A stretch of 43,551 nt of DNA. It comes from a virus. Below are positions 52-43,551 of this stretch, one piece after another. The notes under the pieces are model-generated. The model ran no database searches, was not told the DNA's origin, and worked only from the letters and a program-made list of their open reading frames with translations. Position numbers and translations under genes: made by a program. The DNA is taken from IMG/VR virus record IMGVR_UViG_3300034160_000069, positions 1 to 43,551 of that record. The stretch is one strand, 5' to 3'. The stretch's first letter is position 1. Every line of letters starts with the position of its first letter.

Positions 52-837
52 TTAGACAGGTTTGCCAAGGCGGCCCCCTCTAGCGGATTCGGCACGGGCA
101 AAGGTTTTGGCGAGCCCTGCTGCGAGAAACTTTGGAAACTGTTCCTCGACAAAGCGGTCGGCGATTTCCCAGAACGGGAAGGCGACCCGCCGTTGGTAGG
201 CGGGCGCCCGTACCACGGGCATCATCAACTTCCACCGACCCCGCGCCATGTTGTCGCGCCCCCCCTCGACCCACCAGATGCCCTTCACCAGGCGCCCATT
301 GCGGCCGCGGACTTGGCCGAAGACGTAGCGCGCCTTGCGCGTCTTGGTGGTGGAGGTGAAGCCGCGGGCGTTGCTGTAGGCCCCCACATCGGCCAGCATC
401 TTCTGCATCAGGGGACCGGGCACATTGCCGTAGTTGTTGAGCTTCATGGTGCGACTGGGCACCAGGTACTCCCCGCGCTGCATAAAGCCGGCGTTGATCA
501 GCCAGCGTTCCGCGCCCTTGGGTTCGCGCACCGCGGCGAACCCAGGAACGTGGGGCATCAGCGCCCGCTCCACGGCCTTGCCCTGGGGACCAAAGACGTC
601 CTTGAAGCCGATCTCGGCACTCAGCCGGTCCTCGGTGGCCCACTGGGTCACCCGCAGGCCCGACACGGCAAACGGGGTCGGGTGATCGAACAGGCGCCGG
701 ATCGCGTCTTGCTCCTGCACGAGGACGGCCTTGGCCGTCTGGTTGATCGCCAGCTTCAGTTCGTTGGGGATCTGGCGGGCGGCGATGCCTTCGAGTTCGC
801 GGGCGAGGCTATCGGCATCGGTGGCGATTGTGAACAT
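52..837 (-). CDS. Lambda gpZ-like minor tail protein
   Basis: 261 aa. The plan resembles lambda minor tail protein Z, which acts at the head-proximal tail end. The N-terminal helical stretch (LKLAINQTAKAVLVQEQDAI) matches the Z-type 'alanine-Asn-Arg' helix. A variable centre follows, then a C-terminal helix with FWEIADRFVEEQFPKFLAAG. It starts at ATG 837 inside the end of the upstream gene (82-nt overlap), suggesting translational coupling, and no strong RBS is seen. It lies directly before the terminase small subunit if the sequence is circular. That differs from lambda, where Z follows the head genes. The family assignment rests on layout and motif style by eye, so another minor structural protein remains possible. 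Confidence 0.6.
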   Translation of the reverse strand: MFTIATDADSLARELEGIAARQIPNELKLAINQTAKAVLVQEQDAIRRLFDHPTPFAVSGLRVTQWATEDRLSAEIGFKDVFGPQGKAVERALMPHVPGFAAVREPKGAERWLINAGFMQRGEYLVPSRTMKLNNYGNVPGPLMQKMLADVGAYSNARGFTSTTKTRKARYVFGQVRGRNGRLVKGIWWVEGGRDNMARGRWKLMMPVVRAPAYQRRVAFPFWEIADRFVEEQFPKFLAAGLAKTFARAESARGGRLGKPV

Positions 838-1127
838 GACTCAGCGCCCGCAGCCGCCGTACAGAGCGACCGCGCGGCGGCCACCGTGGTGCAACACCCC
901 AGCAGCGCGTATCGCTGTGGCACGGGCTCCCCGATCCGATAGCGCTCCCGTAATTGCTCGCCAGCCCAATGCGCACACCGACCCTTGGCGAACTCCCGAT
1001 AGCTCCACCCCTCTGCCGCATCCGGTCCCCAGGCGGAGTACTGCGCACCGTCCGCACCCACCGACTTCGACACCGTGTAGCCGCAGTCGCTGACCTGATA
1101 CCACGACGACGCTTGCCGCCACTGCAT
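756..1127 (-). CDS. Small hypothetical phage protein
   Basis: 123 aa, of no family I can name. The N-terminal part (WRQASSWYQVSDCGYTVSKS, then QYSAWGP) resembles the short W-x-Y-x-VS proteins often found in phage replication regions. There are two tandem ATGs at 1130 and 1127. The second is preferred because GGGAGG sits about 7 nt upstream. The last 82 nt overlap the Z-like gene. The C-terminal third is low-complexity Ala/Ser/Pro and may be poorly constrained. It follows the large inverted repeat that separates it from the replication gene. Confidence 0.55.
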   Translation of the reverse strand: MQWRQASSWYQVSDCGYTVSKSVGADGAQYSAWGPDAAEGWSYREFAKGRCAHWAGEQLRERYRIGEPVPQRYALLGCCTTVAAARSLCTAAAGAESCSQSPPMPIASPANSKASPPARSPTN

Positions 1128-1147
1128 CATCGACCTCCCTTTTGTCC

Positions 1148-1404
1148 GCGGTCCACGAAGGTCGGACCAGATTTTTTAGGTTGGACCGCGCTAACCCATT
1201 GCCCCTGTTAACGTGGTCCAACCTAACCCGACCTGTCCAACGTATAGCGTGTGTGCGTATGCGCGCGTACGCGGGCGGGCGGGCGGGCATGCACGCGGGA
1301 GCGCAAAAAGGTTGGACAGGTCGGGTTAGGTTGGACCAGGCCAACAGAATCAAGATGATACAGCGGTCCGACCTCTGTTTTTCGGTCCGACCTTCGTGGA
1401 CCGC
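1148..1404. repeat. 257-bp concentric inverted repeat beside the replication gene
   Basis: The outer arms 1148-1168 and 1384-1404 are perfect 21-bp reverse complements. The inner arms 1214-1241 and 1311-1338 are perfect 28-bp reverse complements. An intermediate pair (1179-1187 and 1365-1373) matches with one change. All three pairs share the same centre at position 1276, so this is one large hairpin-capable structure. The 9-mer GGTYSRACC occurs six times in it (starts 1160, 1179, 1215, 1329, 1365, 1384). The right arm begins 5 nt past the stop of the primase/helicase gene. A replication origin, a terminator/attenuator or a packaging site are all possible; position favours an origin. Confidence 0.85.
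1273..1287 (+). other. G-quadruplex motif in the inverted-repeat loop
   Basis: GGGCGGGCGGGCGGG has four G-triplets with single-base loops. It sits almost exactly on the centre (1276) of the 257-bp inverted repeat. The flanking loop (1242-1272) is largely alternating purine/pyrimidine (GTGTGTGCGTATGCGCGCG), a composition prone to Z-DNA. Folding in vivo is inferred. Confidence 0.7.
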
Positions 1405-1408
1405 ACCC

Positions 1409-3961
1409 TCAAAAATCAATCGGGTCATGCTCATCTCCCGTCGTTTGACTCCCGTTGACCCCGTTTGCCAGCGCCCGCGGCCCTGGCCGATACCCTCGCA
1501 CCCGCTCCCCGTCCTGTCGTGGTCGGGTGTTGCGCCATCCCAGCGCCTGGACGATCATCCCCACCCGGGTTTGCTCCGGCTTCTTCATGTCTTTCGCCGT
1601 GAAGCTCAACGCGTTCTCCATGATCGCGTCCATCGTAACAAAGACTTGGGCGCGTTGCTCCGGTCGTAACCCCACCAGGCGCCGCGCCAGATACGACTGT
1701 ATCCGCCACTCCCACACGTCCCCGGCCACCCGGTCGCCTTGCTGCTCCGCGAGCACGGCCTTCTCTTCGTCGGTCTCCGCGTACCACCGTTCCCCGCGGG
1801 CAAAGCGCATCTGGGCTTCAGCCCAGAGTTGATCGCGGACCTCACCAAGACCGACGATATCGATGTCACCACAGGCCACCGGCCAATACCGCCGATTGCC
1901 CGTCAGATCGGACAGATACTCCGACTGGTTGGTGGTGCCGGCCATCACGGATTGGCGCGGAAACCGCGCCTGTCGATGCCCATACGGCACCCGAAAGCGA
2001 TCCTCCGACGACGAGAAATAGGCTTTGGCCGTACGCATATCCGCCTTGTTCATCGCATCCAATTCGGCCAGTTCAATACACCACACCCCTTGCATCGCCA
2101 ACATCGCATCTTTCGAGCCGATATCGATGCGCGTATCCGAGAACCAGTCCGGCGAATACAGCACCTTCAAGGCGGTCGATTTCAGCACGCCCTGTTCCCC
2201 TTCCAGGATCAAGACGTTATCCGCCTTGCATCCGGGTCGACGAATCCGCGCAATTGACTGGATCATCCACCAGGTGCCGACCCACGACAGATACCGATCG
2301 CGCTCCGCGAGGGCACTATCCGACAGTCCGGGATCATCCCGCGCGTGCCCCGCGCCCAGATACACCTGCAACCACGTATGCAGCCGCTGGCGTCCATCCC
2401 ACACCAACGCATCCAGATAGTCGCGAATCGGATGAAAGCGATTGGCCAAGGCCACGCCAAGGACAGCGTCGGCAATGTCGGTCTTCTTCGGCTCGAAGCG
2501 GAAACGCTCCGCGAGCCAATGCCGCAATTCGGTGTCGTGCGCGTCGGTCCATTCCCCCCGCGCAGCGTTCGCAAACGGCGGGTCCGTTCGTGCGATAATC
2601 CGCTGTGAGAAATCGCAATAGGCGAGACACCCCGTCCACTCCGGGACGTTCGCGATGATCTCGCGCACATTGTAGGCCGTGCCGCGAATCACCCCCTTGT
2701 CGGTATACATCAACCGATCGGCCCAAGGCGGGCGTCCCGCGGGCGCATCCGGTCCGCCGGGCGCCCCAGCGGCAGGAGGAGGCGGCGGCGGCCCGGACGG
2801 CGCCGCCTCAGCCGGCCCCGTGGGCGCATCGACCGGCATTCCATGCTCATCCAGACACACCGCCCACCCGTTCAGCGGCTGCTCCGGATCAAACGAGGGC
2901 GGGACCTCCTGCCCAGCAGGAGGCGGCGCCGACTCCGGTGAGCGGTTTCGCCACCCCAGATGCACCGGATCGATGCCGATCTGGTGACACAGCCACAGGG
3001 CCGCCTCCGCTGGCGTGGTTGGCGATCCCCACTCCAAGACCAGATCGATCGGGGTCTTCCCCCGCTCCTCGCCCCAATCCTGGATCCCGGCCGGAATGAT
3101 CGACAAATCCTCTTCCAGATCCCGCCCGAGCGCCTTCGACGTGACGCGGTACCCGTCGTGATACGACCGCGCGGCCGGCAGCAGCACCGGCACCCACGCC
3201 GGCAGCGCGGCCAGCGCCTTGGTGTTCACCTTCGCGAAGAACGAGGAGGCCGCGGCGGGCGGGTGGTCCTGCCCATTCCCCCCCCGCGCGGCCCGCGGGA
3301 CAGGTGCCGCCTGCGGATCGACCGCCACCAACGCCAGCAACCAGGGCGGCGCCGTCGCGATCGGGCACGACTCTGGATCCCGGCCGGGCGCCCAGGTGTA
3401 GCACCCGCCCGCCGCCAACGCCGACCCCGGCAGAATCACATAGCCGCCGTCCCCGCGCACATCGAGCCCCGGCGTTTCAAGCTGGCCATTGGGCGCGCGT
3501 TCGAAGGGCACCGCCGGATAGCCGCCCGTGCCCCAGGTCTCCGACCCCAGGCCCAAGCGGTGTTGTTTGTTTGGCACCGTCCGCCCGTCGAGCGGGTGAC
3601 GGAAATACAGATGGCGCCCACCGGACCCGGTGATCGCCTCCACCGTGGTCGGCAAGGCGCCGAACACCTCACACAACATCCCGACCGTCGCCGGCCCGGT
3701 GGCACCCTTCTTGACATCCACGTCGAGCACGAAGATGCCGCCCCATACCGCCGCCCCGGTCGGCATCCCGATCAGTGCGCGGCGATACGTGGCCCACCAG
3801 GTGCGGACGGTCGCCTCGTCGAGCGTGGCGTCGTGGAAGCCATTGCCTCCGGCGTCTCGCGGAATCGCCGGTCGGCGTTCCTGACCGCACGGGAACACCG
3901 GCCGGCCAGCCCGGACATGGGCCAGCGCCGCGGCCAGATTGGGCGACTCTGGCGTTGTCAT
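1409..3961 (-). CDS. PrimPol/VirE-type replicative primase-helicase
   Basis: 850 aa, the probable phage replication initiator. The N-terminus (about 1-230) is a bifunctional primase/polymerase (AEP) domain, with the acidic pair in FVLDVDVK and the GSGGRHLYF motif. A Pro/Ala-rich linker spans roughly 340-400. The C-terminal half is a virulence-associated-E superfamily 3-like ATPase. Its Walker A is EGEQGVLKST, its Walker B region is VWCIELAELD, and a sensor-like GTTNQSEYL is followed by GNRRYWPV. The ATG overlaps the stop of the upstream HTH gene by 4 nt (ATGA). A P4-alpha-like role, priming and unwinding at a nearby origin, is inferred; the inverted repeat just past its stop is a candidate origin. 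Confidence 0.9.
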   Translation of the reverse strand: MTTPESPNLAAALAHVRAGRPVFPCGQERRPAIPRDAGGNGFHDATLDEATVRTWWATYRRALIGMPTGAAVWGGIFVLDVDVKKGATGPATVGMLCEVFGALPTTVEAITGSGGRHLYFRHPLDGRTVPNKQHRLGLGSETWGTGGYPAVPFERAPNGQLETPGLDVRGDGGYVILPGSALAAGGCYTWAPGRDPESCPIATAPPWLLALVAVDPQAAPVPRAARGGNGQDHPPAAASSFFAKVNTKALAALPAWVPVLLPAARSYHDGYRVTSKALGRDLEEDLSIIPAGIQDWGEERGKTPIDLVLEWGSPTTPAEAALWLCHQIGIDPVHLGWRNRSPESAPPPAGQEVPPSFDPEQPLNGWAVCLDEHGMPVDAPTGPAEAAPSGPPPPPPAAGAPGGPDAPAGRPPWADRLMYTDKGVIRGTAYNVREIIANVPEWTGCLAYCDFSQRIIARTDPPFANAARGEWTDAHDTELRHWLAERFRFEPKKTDIADAVLGVALANRFHPIRDYLDALVWDGRQRLHTWLQVYLGAGHARDDPGLSDSALAERDRYLSWVGTWWMIQSIARIRRPGCKADNVLILEGEQGVLKSTALKVLYSPDWFSDTRIDIGSKDAMLAMQGVWCIELAELDAMNKADMRTAKAYFSSSEDRFRVPYGHRQARFPRQSVMAGTTNQSEYLSDLTGNRRYWPVACGDIDIVGLGEVRDQLWAEAQMRFARGERWYAETDEEKAVLAEQQGDRVAGDVWEWRIQSYLARRLVGLRPEQRAQVFVTMDAIMENALSFTAKDMKKPEQTRVGMIVQALGWRNTRPRQDGERVRGYRPGPRALANGVNGSQTTGDEHDPIDF

Positions 3962-4719: not shown

Positions 4720-4917
4720 CTAAGCGGCCCTTCGCTCGGGCAACATTGATTGATCTAATTCGGCTTCCAGCGCGGCCAGGGCGCGCACGATCAGCTCACG
4801 CGCGACCACGGCCCGCGGCGCATCGCGGGCGGCGGCCAAGGCGCACAGCCGGGCCATCTGGCCCGGCAAGAGCCGGACTTTGATTTCAGCGACATGCAAA
4901 TCAGCTTCGGGGTCCAT
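4720..4917 (-). CDS. Ribbon-helix-helix DNA-binding protein
   Basis: 65 aa with an Arc/CopG-like plan. A beta strand (VAEIKVRLLP) is followed by two helices (QMARLCALAAARDAPRAVVA and ELIVRALAALEAELD). The strand-helix-helix order and size fit a dimeric RHH repressor. It is the first gene past the leftward terminator at 4973-4999, so it may be made only on read-through or from an unrecognised local promoter. Its target is unknown; control of the replication operon is likely. Confidence 0.65.
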   Translation of the reverse strand: MDPEADLHVAEIKVRLLPGQMARLCALAAARDAPRAVVARELIVRALAALEAELDQSMLPERRAA

Positions 4918-6061: not shown

Positions 6062-6820
6062 ATGGAACCCGTCGGCTTTGCCACCCTGTACTTGAAGCCG
6101 CGGCCGGTCGGCGACCTGGGGAACGTGACTCCCTTGTGGTATGGCGACGCGCTCACGCCCACCGGCGACGTGCGCCTCTATGTCAAACAGGCCCCGCCCG
6201 GCGAAATCCTTGCAGAATGCCTGTGCGCTGTCTTGGGCAGCGCCTTGGGGCTTCCGGTCCCGCGGGTCTTTCTGGTACATGACCCCGCGGCCTGGATCGG
6301 CAGCCGCCTCTTGGTGGGCAGCGAAGACGCGGGGATGCCCTCCTTGCGCCATCATCTTGATCGCGCTGCTCCCGGCTTGACGGCGGCCCTCGCCGCCTGG
6401 CCCCAACTGCATACCGTCGCGCTGTTTGACGAGTGGATCGCCAACCCCGACCGCAACCAAGGCAACCTGCTCTGGGATGCCGCCGACCAGTGGCTGTTGA
6501 TCGACCATGCCCGCGCCTTGGGCGCCTGGCCGCCCGGTGCCCCGGTGCCCGATCCGGAGCATCCGGAAGTCAATCAGCTCGCCGCCGTCGTGCTGGCCCT
6601 GGAAGGGGACTTAGGCCCGCAGCGACTGCGCAAGCACGCCGCCCCCTTCGGGGCCACATGTCGCAAGATTGATCCTCAGCAAACCTTGGAAGCGGCCCGC
6701 TGCCACACGCTGGGCATGGTCGAGCGCGCCGCCCATACGCTATCCTTCCTGGAACGCCGCATCGACTGCCTGCCCGCGCTGCTGGCGCGCCACGGGCGCC
6801 AGGGGGAACTCAATCTATGA
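6062..6820 (+). CDS. HipA-like Ser/Thr kinase-fold protein
   Basis: 252 aa. The core motif (FDEWIANPDRNQGNLLW, then WLLIDHARALG) matches the catalytic and metal-binding loops of HipA-type kinases: Asp, then D-x-N-x-GN, then a DHA in place of DFG. The N-terminal part (LYLKPRP, VRLYVKQAP, LAECLCAVLGSALGLPVPRV) fits the HipA-like phosphate-loop and Lys/Glu region. It is shorter than E. coli HipA (about 440 aa), so it is a compact relative. It sits 2 nt downstream of the CI-like repressor and overlaps the next gene by 4 nt. It could be a toxin or abortive-infection effector expressed from the prophage; substrate and activity are unknown. Confidence 0.75.
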   Translation: MEPVGFATLYLKPRPVGDLGNVTPLWYGDALTPTGDVRLYVKQAPPGEILAECLCAVLGSALGLPVPRVFLVHDPAAWIGSRLLVGSEDAGMPSLRHHLDRAAPGLTAALAAWPQLHTVALFDEWIANPDRNQGNLLWDAADQWLLIDHARALGAWPPGAPVPDPEHPEVNQLAAVVLALEGDLGPQRLRKHAAPFGATCRKIDPQQTLEAARCHTLGMVERAAHTLSFLERRIDCLPALLARHGRQGELNL

Positions 6821-8036: not shown

Positions 8037-8726
8037 ATGACCGCCTGCCCCGCCGAAACACTCTTCGGACCGTTCAACGCGGTCGAGCGCAAACACGCGC
8101 CTGCTCTCTTGTACGTGCAAGGACACGAAGACATCGTAGCGTCCGGGGCGCGGGTCGCGATTGTCGGGTCCCGTGAGGCGACACCCTTCGGCCTCGCCCG
8201 GGCGCGTCGATTGGCACATCAACTGGTCGCCCGTGGCGTGGTGGTGGTCAGCGGACTGGCGAAGGGCATCGATACCGCGGCCCACATCACCGCCATTGAG
8301 CAGGGTGGCCGGACGATCGCGGTGTTGGGGACCCCCTTGACCCAGAGCTATCCACGCGAGAACGCAGCGTTACAGCAACGGATCGGGACCGACCACTTGT
8401 TGCTGATCTCGCAGTTCGCCGCGGGCGTCCCCGTGCAGCGACGGAATTTCCCCTTGCGCAACCGCACCATGGCACTGATCTCGGATGCGACGGTGATCAT
8501 CGAAGCCAGCAACACCAGCGGGGCCTTGTCGCAAGGATGGGAGGCCCTGCGCTTGGGGCGATTGCTCTACATCACCCAGGCTGTCGTGCGCGATCCCGCG
8601 TTGACATGGCCCAAGGACATGCTTGCCGCTGGGGCTAAGGTACTGAGCAACGAGACGCTGGAAGCGTTCATCGAAGGCTTGCCGCCGCGCGTCCCAAAAA
8701 GCCGGAGCCTTGCCCTTACCTTCTGA
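8037..8726 (+). CDS. DprA/Smf-like Rossmann-fold protein
   Basis: 229 aa. DprA signatures appear in order: VAIVGSREATPFG, VVVVSGLAKGIDTAAH, TIAVLGTPL, FPLRNRTMALISDATVIIEA and GALSQGWEALRLGR. DprA loads RecA on ssDNA during natural transformation, and shortened DprA-like proteins also occur in phages and defence loci. Here only the Rossmann core is present; the N-terminal SAM-like and C-terminal winged-helix domains of full DprA are missing. It is the last gene of the CI-linked operon, before the terminator at 8751. A roughly 50-nt gap upstream (7986-8036) contains a short open frame overlapping this ATG that I do not call. Confidence 0.85.
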   Translation: MTACPAETLFGPFNAVERKHAPALLYVQGHEDIVASGARVAIVGSREATPFGLARARRLAHQLVARGVVVVSGLAKGIDTAAHITAIEQGGRTIAVLGTPLTQSYPRENAALQQRIGTDHLLLISQFAAGVPVQRRNFPLRNRTMALISDATVIIEASNTSGALSQGWEALRLGRLLYITQAVVRDPALTWPKDMLAAGAKVLSNETLEAFIEGLPPRVPKSRSLALTF

Positions 8727-10447: not shown

Positions 10448-10903
10448 ATGCACATTCAATCCTCTCACCCGGCCTTGTCTGGCCGGCTCATCGATGCCGG
10501 AATCGCTCTGGCGCAGGAGGTGCAGGACATCGTCGACCAGGCCGTGGACAGCGCCGGCGGCGCCGACCCCGAACCAAGCAGTGCGACGGCGTTTGCGCTC
10601 AGCTTGGTAGAGGAGTGGGAGGAGGCCTATGCCGAGCACAACCACGTCGCCACTGACCGTTTCTCGGGAAACCGCGTCATCCCTGCCGCGGCCGCTGCGC
10701 ACGACGCAACCCTGCTCGCGATTGCGCGCCGGATGGCCGAGGCCAGTCAATCGTTGCTCGATCTCTACGATCCAGACGGGGAGCGCAGCGATGACGCGGA
10801 GATGGATCTGCAGGCGGCGCTGGTGGATTGGACGCGCTGGAACCTGGTCCACCAGGGGCAGCAACGGCTGGACCTCGACCCGATCAACCAGGAGCCCACC
10901 TGA
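10448..10903 (+). CDS. Hypothetical helical protein
   Basis: 151 aa, acidic and predicted all-helical (GRLIDAGIALAQEVQDIV, then FALSLVEEWEEAYAEH, then LLAIARRMAEASQSLLDLYD). No family recognised. It shares one base with the ParB-like ATG (TGATG), so it is coupled to that gene. It may be an accessory to the ParB-like protein. Confidence 0.6.
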   Translation: MHIQSSHPALSGRLIDAGIALAQEVQDIVDQAVDSAGGADPEPSSATAFALSLVEEWEEAYAEHNHVATDRFSGNRVIPAAAAAHDATLLAIARRMAEASQSLLDLYDPDGERSDDAEMDLQAALVDWTRWNLVHQGQQRLDLDPINQEPT

Positions 10904-12690
10904 TGGCCATCTCCGACGCTGCACAGAAACAACGCCGGCCGCCCAGCACGGCGAAGCAACCGGGCGCGATCGTCGTCCGCCTGGGCGGCGCAACCGGGTC
11001 CGGCAACCTGCCGGGTGCGTACCCCCGGTGTGCCTGCGGCTCCGTGGGCGCTCTCTACCAGCGCACCGCCACGACCCCCGAGGACGCCCGCGACGCCTGC
11101 CGCGCGGCGGCCACGGCCGGGGGTTGGCGCTTCCCCGATCCAGGCCCCGAGACGGTCGCCTACTGTCCGGCCTGCGTCCTCGAGGAGCAGGACCGCCCGC
11201 CGGCCGATCTCACCAGCGCATTATCACCACCGCCCGACACCGCGGTTCCGGTCGTCCGATCCGCGCCCCGCGGCATCCGTTTGGCCCCGCACCTTCAGAC
11301 ACTGACCACCCTGCCGGCGCCCAGGTATGTCATCAACCAGGTCTACGACATCCCCGTGGGCGACCTGATGCCCGACCCGCACCAACCCCGCAAGCTCTTC
11401 GATCCCGGCGCGCTGCGCACATTGGCCGCGTCCATGCGCACCGGCGGGCAGCAACAGACCATCCGCTTCCGCGAGCGCCTCAATCCGCCGCCCGAGGAAG
11501 CCCCCCTGATCCTGGTGGATGGTGAGCGCCGCTGGCGCGCCGCCCAGCTCGTGGGCCTGCCCACCCTGCGCGCCATCCTGGACCCCGACACCGACTACGG
11601 CGCCGACCTGATTGTGCGGCAGGCGCTGCTTAACGAGCCCGGGCGACCGCTCCAGGCGTGGGATTGGGTCCTGACATTTAATCATCTGGCACGCCAATAC
11701 ACCCTGACGCCCGCCCAAATCGCCGTGCACCTCACCACGCGCGGCATCCTCCACCACGACGGTCGCCCGTGGACCCGCCCCCAGGTCGCCAACTACCTGC
11801 GGCTGCTCGCACTCCCCGGCTGGTGCCAAGACCTCATCGCCGAGGGCCCGCTTACCCCCAGTCACGGCCTGCGCATCCTGCCGCACATCGCGCGCCCGGC
11901 TGTGATGGAGCACTTGCGGACCATCCTCAGCAAGCGCTGCGCCGGTACCCCATCACCGGCGCCCGCGGCCGCCGACGACCGCGACGAGGACCGCGACACC
12001 GAAGCGACCAGCGGCGACGCCGCGGTCAGCGAAGACGCGCCGGAGGCCTTCACCGTGGCCGACCTGCGCCGCGAGCTGCACGGCATCTATTACCAGCTGT
12101 ATATCCCCTTGCCGGATGGCAAATGGCTCAACAACAAATTGTTATCCCCTCAGTGGAACTGTGAAGACCCCGCCGACCAGTGCCGGACCTGCCCGCAGCG
12201 CGCGGAGACCGACGGCTGGTCCGGGCGCAAGTCGTGGTGCATGGATCAGGCGTGCATGGACACCCGCAACGCGGAGCACCAACACCACGCCGCGCAGACC
12301 CGCGACCCCGCGGAGGGCACCGACCCGACCGCACAACAGGACCGTGACGCACGGGAGGCCGAGTTCAAGGCGCGCCAGGCACAGGCGCAAACCGAATGCG
12401 ACGCCATCCGGGGTGCGGTCAGCCTGGCGGAGCCCGAGCAACTGCTTGCCCTCCTGCTCTGGCGCCTGCTCAGTTACCACGCCCGCAGCTGCGGCTCGAG
12501 CAACAGCATTCCCGCCCCGGCCGCCATCGCTCAGCACCTCGCGGGCCACACCCGCACGCGCTTCCTGCGCGCCCGGTTAGCCGGACTCCTGGACCTCAAC
12601 TACGATGGCCCGGTCCGCGCCGTCGTGCAGGAGTACCTGGGACTTGCTGCATCCCCCGCAGAGCAGCAGCAGGATCAGGAGGCACCATGA
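10903..12690 (+). CDS. Large ParB-like protein with zinc-binding segments
   Basis: 595 aa from ATG 10903. The N-terminal about 85 residues carry a CxC...CPAC pattern (YPRCACGSVGALY, then VAYCPACVLEE) like a zinc ribbon. Then comes a ParB/Srx-type nuclease core: IPVGDLMPDPHQPRKLFD, IRFRERLN and ILVDGERRWRAAQLVG. A KorB-like HTH region follows, with LTPAQIAVHLTTRG and WTRPQVANYLRLLALP. A second Cys cluster (DQCRTCPQRA, WCMDQACMDT) lies near residue 430. Phage ParB-like proteins act in plasmid-style partition, transcription or ssDNA nicking, and no ParA is seen here. It is the hub of the pre-integrase operon; a partition role is doubtful without ParA. Confidence 0.8.
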   Translation: MAISDAAQKQRRPPSTAKQPGAIVVRLGGATGSGNLPGAYPRCACGSVGALYQRTATTPEDARDACRAAATAGGWRFPDPGPETVAYCPACVLEEQDRPPADLTSALSPPPDTAVPVVRSAPRGIRLAPHLQTLTTLPAPRYVINQVYDIPVGDLMPDPHQPRKLFDPGALRTLAASMRTGGQQQTIRFRERLNPPPEEAPLILVDGERRWRAAQLVGLPTLRAILDPDTDYGADLIVRQALLNEPGRPLQAWDWVLTFNHLARQYTLTPAQIAVHLTTRGILHHDGRPWTRPQVANYLRLLALPGWCQDLIAEGPLTPSHGLRILPHIARPAVMEHLRTILSKRCAGTPSPAPAAADDRDEDRDTEATSGDAAVSEDAPEAFTVADLRRELHGIYYQLYIPLPDGKWLNNKLLSPQWNCEDPADQCRTCPQRAETDGWSGRKSWCMDQACMDTRNAEHQHHAAQTRDPAEGTDPTAQQDRDAREAEFKARQAQAQTECDAIRGAVSLAEPEQLLALLLWRLLSYHARSCGSSNSIPAPAAIAQHLAGHTRTRFLRARLAGLLDLNYDGPVRAVVQEYLGLAASPAEQQQDQEAP

Positions 12691-40901: not shown

Positions 40902-41174
40902 TCAAGACCGGCCCCCGGCGCTCACATCATCGCCAACCGGCGGCGCGCACAGCCGCTTGACCAACGGCAACCGATCCGCCGGCGGGCGTCCGCCCAACCC
41001 ATGGGCCCCGCCCCGCTCCTGGAGCAACATCAGGATGAGGCGGATGTTGCGCGGGACCGGCAACCGGCCGCCCCAGTCGTAGACGGTCTTGGTGTTGACC
41101 GCGACCAGGTCGGCAAACTCGCCGGTGGTCAGGCCCACATGGTGCAGGGCGTTGCGGAAGGCGGTGCGGTCCAT
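40902..41174 (-). CDS. HTH protein after terminase
   Basis: 90 aa. FRNALHHVGLTTGEFADLVA, then VNTKTVYDWGGRLPVPRNIR is an XRE-like HTH, and LILMLLQERGG ends the core. Its ATG shares one base with the terminase stop, so it is made with terminase. It may be a small late regulator. The tail from residue about 60 is disordered. Confidence 0.65.
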   Translation of the reverse strand: MDRTAFRNALHHVGLTTGEFADLVAVNTKTVYDWGGRLPVPRNIRLILMLLQERGGAHGLGGRPPADRLPLVKRLCAPPVGDDVSAGGRS

Positions 41175-43240
41175 CAGAAGGCCCGGAAGCGCTCAGTGCG
41201 CGGGGGCGGCGCGGCGACCGGGGGCATGGTTTCGCGGGAAACGGGCAACCGCTCCGCCTGTGGGGAGACGGGCAGCAGCAGCACGTGCTGGCGTAACCGC
41301 GCCTCTTCGGCTTGCCATTGCGCCGGGGTGCGGATGTGCAGCTTGAGGGCGCGGGCGGCATGTTCGGCGTAGACCTCGAGGTCGAGGGCTTCGTGGGGTA
41401 CGCCGACCTTGGGTTGCCAGGTGAGCTTGCCGCGCTGGGTGCGCGAGGGGGCTTTGACCTCGCTCAGGATCTGATCCCAGTAGTCGGCGCGCACCTCGGC
41501 ATAGGCGTGGTGACGGCCCTGGCCCTGGGCTTCGAGCTTCCAGCGGGCGGCCAGGTAGTCCTTGGCCCGCCAGGTGCCGACTTCGTGGATGCGCAGGCCC
41601 CAGCGGTCCGCCTTGGTGTGGCGCGCCGGGTTGATGGGGTTGACGGCCGCGGCCTTGGGGGGGCTGTAGATCTCGCGGTCCACGCTGGCGCCCTTGATGG
41701 CCATCAGTTCGACGCCCGCATGTTGCCGCTTGCGGCTGGATATCCAGGCGTAGACGGCGTCGTTGGTGCCCCCGTCGCCGGTGTCCAGGGAGACGGCTTT
41801 GGCGTACAGGGGGATGCCGTCCGCGGTCACGTAGGGGGCAAAGAGGAGGCGGTCAAGTTCCTCCCACACCGGGTCCTGGATGTTGGTGGTGCTGACGGCC
41901 GCCGCGGGCTCGGTCCACAGCACGAGCCACGAGCAGTTGTCGCGGCCATAGGCGCGCAGTAGGACCGACAGGCGGTTATTCTGGACGTCCACGGAGCCGA
42001 CCAGGGCGAGCGCACCGGCCGGCGGTTGCCCCTCGGGATAGTCGAGCGCGTTGGCTTTGAGCGCTTCGGACTGGGCTTGGTCGCCGACGAACGCGTAGGG
42101 GCGGCCGTGCTTGCTGTTGATGTGGACGATCATCTTGGTCTGATCGCCCAGCCGGAGCGCGTGTTCGGCCTCCAGGCGGTCGCGGACGTAGGCGGCCATG
42201 CCGGCGCCAGGGAGGCAGGAGTAGCCTTCGTTCAGCTCGGTAAAGCCGGCGGCGCCGCGGGTCTCGCGGGTGGGGGTCCAGCCACACAGCGGGTCCCCGG
42301 CGGCGATGGCGTCCGCCACGGTGGTGCGGATGTTCTGCTGGCGCTGGTAGTCATCCCACGGGGTGCCGCAGTGGGGGCAGGTGTAGACGGCCGTGTCGGG
42401 GTCGGCGGTGCCGTAGATGGGATGGGGCTCGCGGTCGTGATCCTGCCAAGTGACATGCTCCAGGTCGAGGACGTGGGACTCGTGGCAGGCGTGACAGCGC
42501 ACGGGCAGGACGCGCCGATCGGTCAAGTTGATGCGGTGCTCGATCTGCGACAGGCCTTTGAGGCTCGGCGTGCCCCCGATGATGCGCTTGACATCGGTTC
42601 TCCGCTTGCTCCGCTCCCAGAGCAGTTGAATCGCGGACCCTTGGTCGCGAACATTCTCCTTGGCGTCGTCGGGCTCTTCGACGAAGAGCACACCGGCGGA
42701 GGTGGATTTGACTTTACGGATCTGCCCGGAGCCACCCAGCTTGAGGAAGCCGCCGGGGAACGACTTGAAGTCACTGCGGTTGCCGGCGGTGCGGGACTTG
42801 CTCACGTTGATGCGGGCGAGCAAGGCCGGGGTGTTCAGGATGATCGGCACCAGCTTCTCGTCGTGGAAGTCGCGCGCGGCACCGTCGCTTTCGAACAGGC
42901 CGATCATGGCGCAGGGGGCGTTGCAGATGCGGTTGGCGAGGTAGGCAATGAGGCCGGTCGTCCACGCCTGTTGCGCGCTCTTCATGCACACCACGTCGGT
43001 GGTGGCCGGATCGTCCAGCGCGGCGAAGATGCCGTAGAGGGCCGGGGCGTAGTAGAGGCTGAACAGGCCGTGCTGCTCACTGGTCTCCGGGGCCAGGTAG
43101 AGCTTGGTCTCCGCAAACTGCGTCGTCGGGATCTGCACCCGCGGCGCCCACTCCAAGCCTACCTGCAGCAGTAAGCGCGCTAAGTTCATGCGCGTAGGCT
43201 GCAATACTTCGTTGGGCATCGCGTATGTGATCGCTGACAT
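41174..43240 (-). CDS. Terminase large subunit, lambda gpA family
   Basis: 688 aa (lambda A is 641). The ATPase has a Walker A-like VVCMKSAQQAWTTG, Walker B-like GVLFVEEPDDA and GTPSLKGLSQIEHRI. Two CxxC pairs (RCHACHESH, TCPHCGTPW) form a zinc-binding insertion. The nuclease half has VGSVDVQNNRL, LDTGDGGTNDAVYAW and YWDQILSEVK. ATG 43240 has GGAGAG 5 nt upstream and overlaps the small subunit by 164 nt. It packages DNA, probably at cos sites. Confidence 0.93.
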   Translation of the reverse strand: MSAITYAMPNEVLQPTRMNLARLLLQVGLEWAPRVQIPTTQFAETKLYLAPETSEQHGLFSLYYAPALYGIFAALDDPATTDVVCMKSAQQAWTTGLIAYLANRICNAPCAMIGLFESDGAARDFHDEKLVPIILNTPALLARINVSKSRTAGNRSDFKSFPGGFLKLGGSGQIRKVKSTSAGVLFVEEPDDAKENVRDQGSAIQLLWERSKRRTDVKRIIGGTPSLKGLSQIEHRINLTDRRVLPVRCHACHESHVLDLEHVTWQDHDREPHPIYGTADPDTAVYTCPHCGTPWDDYQRQQNIRTTVADAIAAGDPLCGWTPTRETRGAAGFTELNEGYSCLPGAGMAAYVRDRLEAEHALRLGDQTKMIVHINSKHGRPYAFVGDQAQSEALKANALDYPEGQPPAGALALVGSVDVQNNRLSVLLRAYGRDNCSWLVLWTEPAAAVSTTNIQDPVWEELDRLLFAPYVTADGIPLYAKAVSLDTGDGGTNDAVYAWISSRKRQHAGVELMAIKGASVDREIYSPPKAAAVNPINPARHTKADRWGLRIHEVGTWRAKDYLAARWKLEAQGQGRHHAYAEVRADYWDQILSEVKAPSRTQRGKLTWQPKVGVPHEALDLEVYAEHAARALKLHIRTPAQWQAEEARLRQHVLLLPVSPQAERLPVSRETMPPVAAPPPRTERFRAF

Positions 43241-43551
43241 GACGACTCTCCAAAACCATCCCGAACTCGCTGCGCAGGCCCTCGCTGATGCGGCGCTCCG
43301 CCGCGTTCAACGCCAGGCTCCCGCGCGCCGCCCAGTTGCTGAGCGACCGCTTGACGTCTGACTCCAGCACCAGGTAACCCAACTCGCGGGCCGTCTCGAC
43401 CTCGGCTTTGTGGGCCTTGGCGTTGGCTTCGCGGATCCGCGCACGGGTTAACTCGCTGGGCTCTTCGCCGTCTTCCCCGCGACCTTGGGCGTTGGCGCGC
43501 AGGTGCCGCAGGTACGCACTCAACCACTCGCGCAGGGTTTGCCCCTTGCTG
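43077..43551 (-). CDS. Terminase small subunit (Nu1-like), start beyond window edge
   Basis: At least 157 codons; the frame is open at the right edge (SKGQTLREWLSAYLRHLRAN). The motif TLREWLSAYLRHLRANAQGR fits Nu1-family proteins after their HTH. A helical dimerisation half (RIREANAKAHKAEVETAREL...) follows. If the ends are joined, the frame continues to a TTG at 47 or a GTG at 95, giving about 173 or 189 aa, near lambda Nu1 (181). The TTG at 43523 is an internal start and is not preferred. Confidence 0.75.
   Translation of the reverse strand, partial: SKGQTLREWLSAYLRHLRANAQGRGEDGEEPSELTRARIREANAKAHKAEVETARELGYLVLESDVKRSLSNWAARGSLALNAAERRISEGLRSEFGMVLESRHVSDHIRDAQRSIAAYAHELSALTAAGRLGVGAAGADPDDAVCGDQALPGPGDQ

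Follow-up and report, generated by a model that had tools for sequence, protein, structure and literature searches.

PICI origins are composed of two iteron sets placed around an AT-rich region (PMC6092414). In the PICI of E. coli CFT073, a pri-rep-ori segment supports replication, and deletion of ori lowers replication (PMC6092414). The alpha protein of P4 carries a primase of the bacterial (Toprim) type (PMC4234260). In pRN1, a 100-bp stem-loop located 3' of ORF904 is required for replication. This element and that of Bordetella phage BIP-1 were read by the authors as a stem-loop without iterons, and in their hands ORF904 did not bind specifically to the pRN1 region (PMC4234260).

Phage genome and PrimPol-VapE gene

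The element described here lies in a 43,551-bp viral record which, taken at its full length, is referred to as the window. The window is that of a temperate tailed phage, with genes for an integrase, terminase, portal protein, head protease, tape-measure protein and tail proteins. No end repeat was found in the window. A minor tail gene stands at the left end (1-837) and a terminase gene at the right end (41174-43551). In Pseudomonas phage vB_Pae_U5 these two genes are adjacent, so that the record probably represents a near-complete genome in circularly permuted form. An accessory region (6062-6820 and 8037-8726) codes for a HipA-like kinase fragment (PF20613) and a DprA-like protein (PF02481), and a ParB-like gene (10828-12690) is present in this phage that also bears an integrase. 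The closest chromosomal relatives of the PrimPol-VapE protein are encoded in Chromatiaceae, namely in an uncultured Lamprocystis MAG (L120; 89%, residues 1-527) and in Thiocystis violacea (L121), pointing to a purple sulfur bacterium as the likely host.

The putative initiator gene (1409-3961, minus strand) codes for a Prim-Pol domain (PF09250) and a VapE-like helicase (PF05272). The helicase part matched PDB 7pds both by profile (E=6e-86) and by fold (E=7e-29); the entry carries the title 'The structure of PriRep1 with dsDNA' and the molecule name 'Similar to D. nodosus vapE'. PriRep1 is a staphylococcal island protein. The last 106 residues (codons at 1412-1729, minus strand) were predicted by AlphaFold2 to form a winged helix, with a mean pLDDT of 86, and this domain is the proposed reader of the iterons described below. 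Its top PDB matches in Foldseek were winged-helix regulators, all of them weak (E>=0.03). No match to D5_N or pRN1_helical was found in the window PrimPol-VapE, and a Toprim-type primase domain is absent from this protein, Prim-Pol PF09250 standing in its place. In the relatives L020 and L021, a Toprim-type primase domain replaces Prim-Pol on the same VapE helicase with the origin layout unchanged, and the primase type is therefore exchangeable.

A concentric array of mirror-image iterons

Repeat detection placed a concentric inverted repeat at 1148-1404 with its centre at 1276. The three nested pairs claimed in the original prediction were all recovered around this common centre. The outer arms (1148-1168/1384-1404) are paired at 21 of 21 positions and the inner arms (1214-1241/1311-1338) at 28 of 28; the middle arms (about 1178-1189/1363-1374) are paired at 11 of 12 positions and so differ in size from the 9 bp with one change that had been proposed. 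The element is single-copy in the 43,551-bp record, its sole other match being its own reverse complement. Its location beside the PrimPol/VirE gene, as originally given, can be refined: the PrimPol-VapE gene (minus strand) has its end at 1409, and the element is on its 3' side, starting 4 bp past the stop codon. Folded as single-stranded DNA, the element reached -87.4 kcal/mol compared to -43.8 kcal/mol for dinucleotide shuffles (z -11), and folded as RNA it reached about -162 kcal/mol (z -15 against dinucleotide shuffles); none of 200 shuffles was as good. The check by folding that had been proposed thus showed the element to be far more stable than shuffles in both forms.

The arms consist mostly of a short iteron, GTCCRACC, repeated with a period of about 9.5 bp in two mirror-image sets. 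Seven exact and several degenerate copies are found in the element, and just two exact copies elsewhere in the 43.5 kb. Near matches to the unit are densest at the element (11 per 300 bp, versus at most 3 in windows away from it). The motif GGTYSRACC, for which six copies had been claimed, occurs exactly six times in the window, each time within the element. On either side of the centre, iterons are located at distances of 37, (47), 56, 93 and 112 bp, the copy at 47 bp being degenerate. Because the copies occupy mirrored distances, the three nested pairs, correct as seen, are better described as one mirrored iteron array, and it is this array (1148-1404, no strand) that is proposed as a replication origin.

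In the half of higher coordinates, the outer iteron GTCCGACC (1385-1392) is followed inwards by a second GTCCGACC at 93 bp from the centre (1366-1373), which takes the place of the 'reversed' iteron of relatives; both are on the plus strand. Next come, on the minus strand, the inner iteron GTCCAACC (1329-1336), a degenerate inner copy ACCCGACC read from the sequence (1319-1326) and the innermost iteron GTCCAACC (1310-1317). The other half begins next to the centre with GTCCAACG, an innermost iteron with one change (1235-1242), followed outwards by the degenerate ACCCGACC, again read from the sequence and the mirror of 1319-1326 (1226-1233), and by the inner iteron GTCCAACC (1216-1223), all on the plus strand; it continues on the minus strand with GTCCAACC at 93 bp from the centre (1179-1186) and the outer iteron GTCCGACC (1160-1167). 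Since the window iteron is itself near-palindromic, its orientation is not certain to read.

Recurrence of iterons 3' of VapE helicase genes

In virus record L003, whose PrimPol-VapE is 69% identical, an element with nine exact GTCCGACC was found in the same place. Gene order in this record is PrimPol-VapE, element and then a homologue (38% over 91 columns) of the small ORF past the element in the window (124 aa; 756-1130, minus strand). The arms are thus retained in a relative with the same gene order, and the check proposed in the original prediction came out in its favour. Locus L004 (32% identity) contains eight GTCCACCC. When the exact arm was used as query against viral contigs, 13 unrelated matches were obtained, because the iteron letters are not conserved.

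VapE helicases were gathered by helicase sequence alone from phage, plasmid and virus collections, and the collected loci were grouped into 36 clusters at 80% identity; more than 593 VapE loci were found to exist. In 28 of the 36 clusters, some 8-mer recurred four or more times in a stretch of 400 bp. The strongest 8-mer cluster fell in the first 700 bp 3' of the stop codon of the helicase gene in 22 of these 28 (2.3 expected, p=3e-19), and in 15 of 18 at 50% clustering. The repeated word varies by element and reads GGTCACCC in Marinobacter phage PS3, GTAACAAC in APSE-1, TGCCACCC in Komagataeibacter pKNA06, GCCCCAAC in a Roseomonas plasmid and GTTCCACC in a Serratia plasmid. Clear iterons were lacking at this position in roughly one third of the VapE loci, such as L022, L031, L047 and L054. 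On a Nostoc plasmid (L033:3980-4300), ten GGTGGAAC are found inside the 3' part of the VapE gene and not after the gene. A scan of genome contigs with a single protein yielded two loci, one of which stops before its origin.

The survey bears on the possibility that the element acts in the transcript, as a long hairpin ending or stabilising the PrimPol-VapE mRNA. Its start 4 bp past the stop codon and the stable RNA fold would suit such a function. It is nevertheless exceedingly improbable, given that the element contains no intrinsic terminator, that no Rfam match was found in the window, and that the array is located 380-650 bp further downstream in L021, L044, L098 and L043, in L021 past an intervening ORF. 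As to the transcription control that had been offered as an option, neither a promoter nor an intrinsic terminator was found in the element, although some role of this kind may exist.

Further candidates were rejected: (i) a packaging site, likewise part of the original prediction, because the annotated cos end of Variovorax phage VarioGold lies elsewhere, about 1.9 kb past the helicase gene; (ii) a mobile palindrome or MITE, as the element is single-copy, has the same gene context in the relative and is without a match in the phage collection; (iii) a known RNA family, for lack of an Rfam match in the window; (iv) a tRNA, as none was found.

A conserved layout with variable iteron letters

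As far as the compared sequences indicate, the layout is kept across elements and the iteron letters are not. The innermost iteron is directed to the core in 36 of 38 half-origins. Neighbouring inner iterons are in most cases separated by 7-9 bp. Beyond them comes a reversed iteron, commonly 33-37 bp further out (17 of 27) with a second group at 42-45 bp, and an outer iteron follows 20-23 bp past the reversed iteron in 14 of 20. For these spacings and orientations the centre was placed by eye in several loci, and the comparison covers neither the window nor L004, L026, L027 and L032. The layout of PS3 is 113> 92< 57> 48> 39> | 39< 48< 57< 92> 113<, and that of L042 is 107> 98> 77< 43> 35> 26> | 26< 35< 77> 98< 107<. 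Over all scored loci, mirroring was above that of random layouts (Fisher p=6e-10), a statistic that uses automatic centres, which were misplaced in some loci (L004, L029, L038, L100 and L109). The stop position used for L004 was about one base off. Compared to shuffled orientations alone, few single loci fell below 5%, and the evidence for mirroring is that of the aggregate. All these counts take related loci as independent.

The same layout was seen at a locus that was found late and played no part in building the layout rule. On a scaffold of Thiocystis violacea DSM 207 (L121:4399-4650), TACCGCAA iterons are arranged as >> < >>> | <<< directly 3' of a gene for an 895-aa DUF3987 protein, which has only the linker region in common with the window PrimPol-VapE; the layout is thus seen with another helicase family.

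Correlation of iteron letters with the C-terminal domain

Among 22 replicons, similarity of the iterons was correlated with identity of the helicase C-terminus (Mantel r=0.47, p=0.0005). The correlation persisted when the ATPase domain was controlled for (partial 0.40), whereas the ATPase domain added nothing once the C-terminus was controlled for (-0.11). This is the pattern expected if the winged-helix domain reads the iterons.

The element could also be regarded as an operator array for a repressor or another regulator and not as an origin. Repeated near-palindromic sites resemble operators, and other DNA-binding genes are present in the window, that is, the ParB-like gene and an Arc-like gene (4720-4917). 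Such an operator is very improbable, however, because no promoter was found in the element, because replicons with little else in common carry the array 3' of the helicase gene, and because the iteron letters follow the C-terminus of the helicase.

Alternatively, the element might be an origin recognised in extruded form, as a cruciform or stem-loop, and not as iterons in duplex DNA; a reading of this kind was proposed for pRN1 and BIP-1. This would agree with the very stable predicted fold and with the behaviour of pRN1, in which a stem mutation was tolerated only together with a second change restoring symmetry and no specific protein binding was seen (PMC4234260). We still consider extrusion unlikely here: relatives retain single iterons in constant orientation and at constant distances, the spacers that separate them are unpaired, several iteron sets are not fully symmetrical, and the iteron letters vary with the winged-helix domain.

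The core

The core between the two iteron sets (1243-1309, no strand) is without an AT-rich region; GC content is 70% in its central 70 bp, the gene mean being 67%. The four-run G motif and the alternating purine/pyrimidine DNA predicted for the loop are both present. The latter is an alternating CG/CA segment of 34 bp (1240-1273, no strand) and represents the top Z-DNA-prone stretch of the window. It scored 19.8, compared to 10.9 for the next best 700-bp window and a shuffle maximum of 12.2, in a simple scheme of our own in which alternating CG steps are weighted highest and which involves no thermodynamic calculation. In 24 of 36 loci (3.0 expected, p=6e-18), including phages of about 45% GC (L035, L036 and L042), the 700 bp on the 3' side of the helicase contained the best Z-prone segment of the whole locus; at 50% clustering, the placement was the same in 11 of 22 loci (p=1e-6). 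AT-rich cores are found in APSE-1, pRN1, BIP-1 and the Serratia and Komagataeibacter plasmids, and the Z-prone core is therefore a variant and not a rule.

The four-run G motif is GGGCGGGCGGGCGGG (1273-1287, plus strand), and a motif of this kind was seen near the centre in just 2 of 27 origins. It is thus not conserved and probably incidental, and the idea of a G-quadruplex as the functional centre of the element was abandoned.

Proposed function as replication origin

From this arrangement it is highly probable that the element is a replication origin bound by the winged helix of PrimPol-VapE, with one assembly per half. In the mechanism we infer, the C-terminal winged helix would bind the GTCCRACC iterons and, the iterons being mirror images, two helicase assemblies would be loaded, one to either side of the core and directed towards each other, as in double-hexamer loading. 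The helicase pair would then melt the core between them, PrimPol would prime the opened core, and forks would leave both ways. The origin that had been called plausible is now well supported, by the element and gene order in L003, the 3' clusters in 22 of 28 loci, the recurrent mirrored layout, the match of the helicase to PriRep1, the correlation of iteron letters with the C-terminal domain, the iteron order of the functional CFT073 PICI origin and the fit of the P4 ori repeats to one half of the array. Counting against it are the VapE loci, about one in three, that lack clear iterons at this position, and the report that ORF904 did not bind specifically in pRN1.

No DnaA boxes were found within 1 kb of the element when up to one mismatch was allowed, and a DnaA-dependent iteron plasmid origin was rejected on this ground, but the proposed origin requires no such box. 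Raw cumulative GC skew reaches its lowest value near 12.8 kb and comes close to its highest at the two ends of the contig. The extreme near the element is of a sign opposite to that usual for an origin, in a linear record of uncertain true ends, and GC skew neither helps nor refutes the proposed origin. The sign change near 12.8 kb lies close to the integrase gene and the ParB-like gene and is not a plain reflection of gene direction.

A wider generalization is possible, though we put it forward with considerable doubt. VapE, D5_N and DUF3987 primase-helicase initiators of phages, plasmids and satellites may have one mirror-image iteron layout in common, by which two helicase rings are set opposite each other; in many VapE phages the strands may be opened at a conserved CG/CA core that forms Z-DNA, and not at an AT-rich region; and the 'stem-loop origins' of the pRN1 type may be the same thing. 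The proposed origin would in itself provide a simple rule, mirrored iterons 3' of the VapE gene, by which origins could be located in many temperate phages and plasmids. The layout would tie the SaPI/PICI, P4 and pRN1 stem-loop literatures into one testable scheme and suggests how two helicases come to stand face to face. From the model it can also be predicted where in the initiator origin specificity resides, and a GC-rich, Z-DNA-prone core where an AT-rich one is expected raises the question why.

Comparison with known origins

The element had been thought to match no known family. Its arrangement is, however, that of the PICI/SaPI and P4-type origins located 3' of a primase-helicase gene, and it also has features in common with pRN1 and BIP-1. 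The arms of pRN1 read TGTCCATAG-TGTCCAAC and the reverse, which amounts to two iteron-like units per arm, and BIP-1 has (TTTGCCTCG)x2 in opposed orientation. Like the window, both have a gene for Prim-Pol, helicase and C-terminal winged helix that is followed on its 3' side by an inverted repeat, the arms of which are 9-bp-spaced repeats. Unlike the window VapE, their helicases are of the D5_N type, and they have two units per arm and an AT-rich core. As no specific binding of ORF904 was reported, a simple transfer of the iteron model to pRN1 is disfavoured.

In P4, the type I repeats of the annotated ori comprise a reversed repeat 22 bp from the outer triplet and 43/53 bp from the inner pair, and one half of the window layout fits these repeats; crr is located just 3' of alpha. 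Like P4 alpha, the window protein is a multifunctional primase-helicase with iterons and, by its predicted fold, a C-terminal winged helix. Unlike the window with its Prim-Pol and complete two-sided array, P4 has its ori 4 kb from the gene and unmirrored.

In the CFT073 PICI, CTGTCTACC iterons are ordered as >> < >>> | << > << and located 3' of the primase gene; the iteron order of the window is the same. As in SaPI/PICI, the window element stands directly 3' of the putative initiator gene and has two iteron sets around a core, and the helicase of the window protein is homologous to PriRep1 (PDB 7pds). In contrast to SaPI/PICI, the iteron letters differ, the core is GC-rich with alternating CG/CA and without an AT-rich region, and the window is that of a tailed phage with its own structural genes, not of a satellite. 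Judged by its sequence, the element is thus one that would work like an iteron origin of the PICI/P4 type, although it does not belong to a PICI and lacks an AT-rich core.
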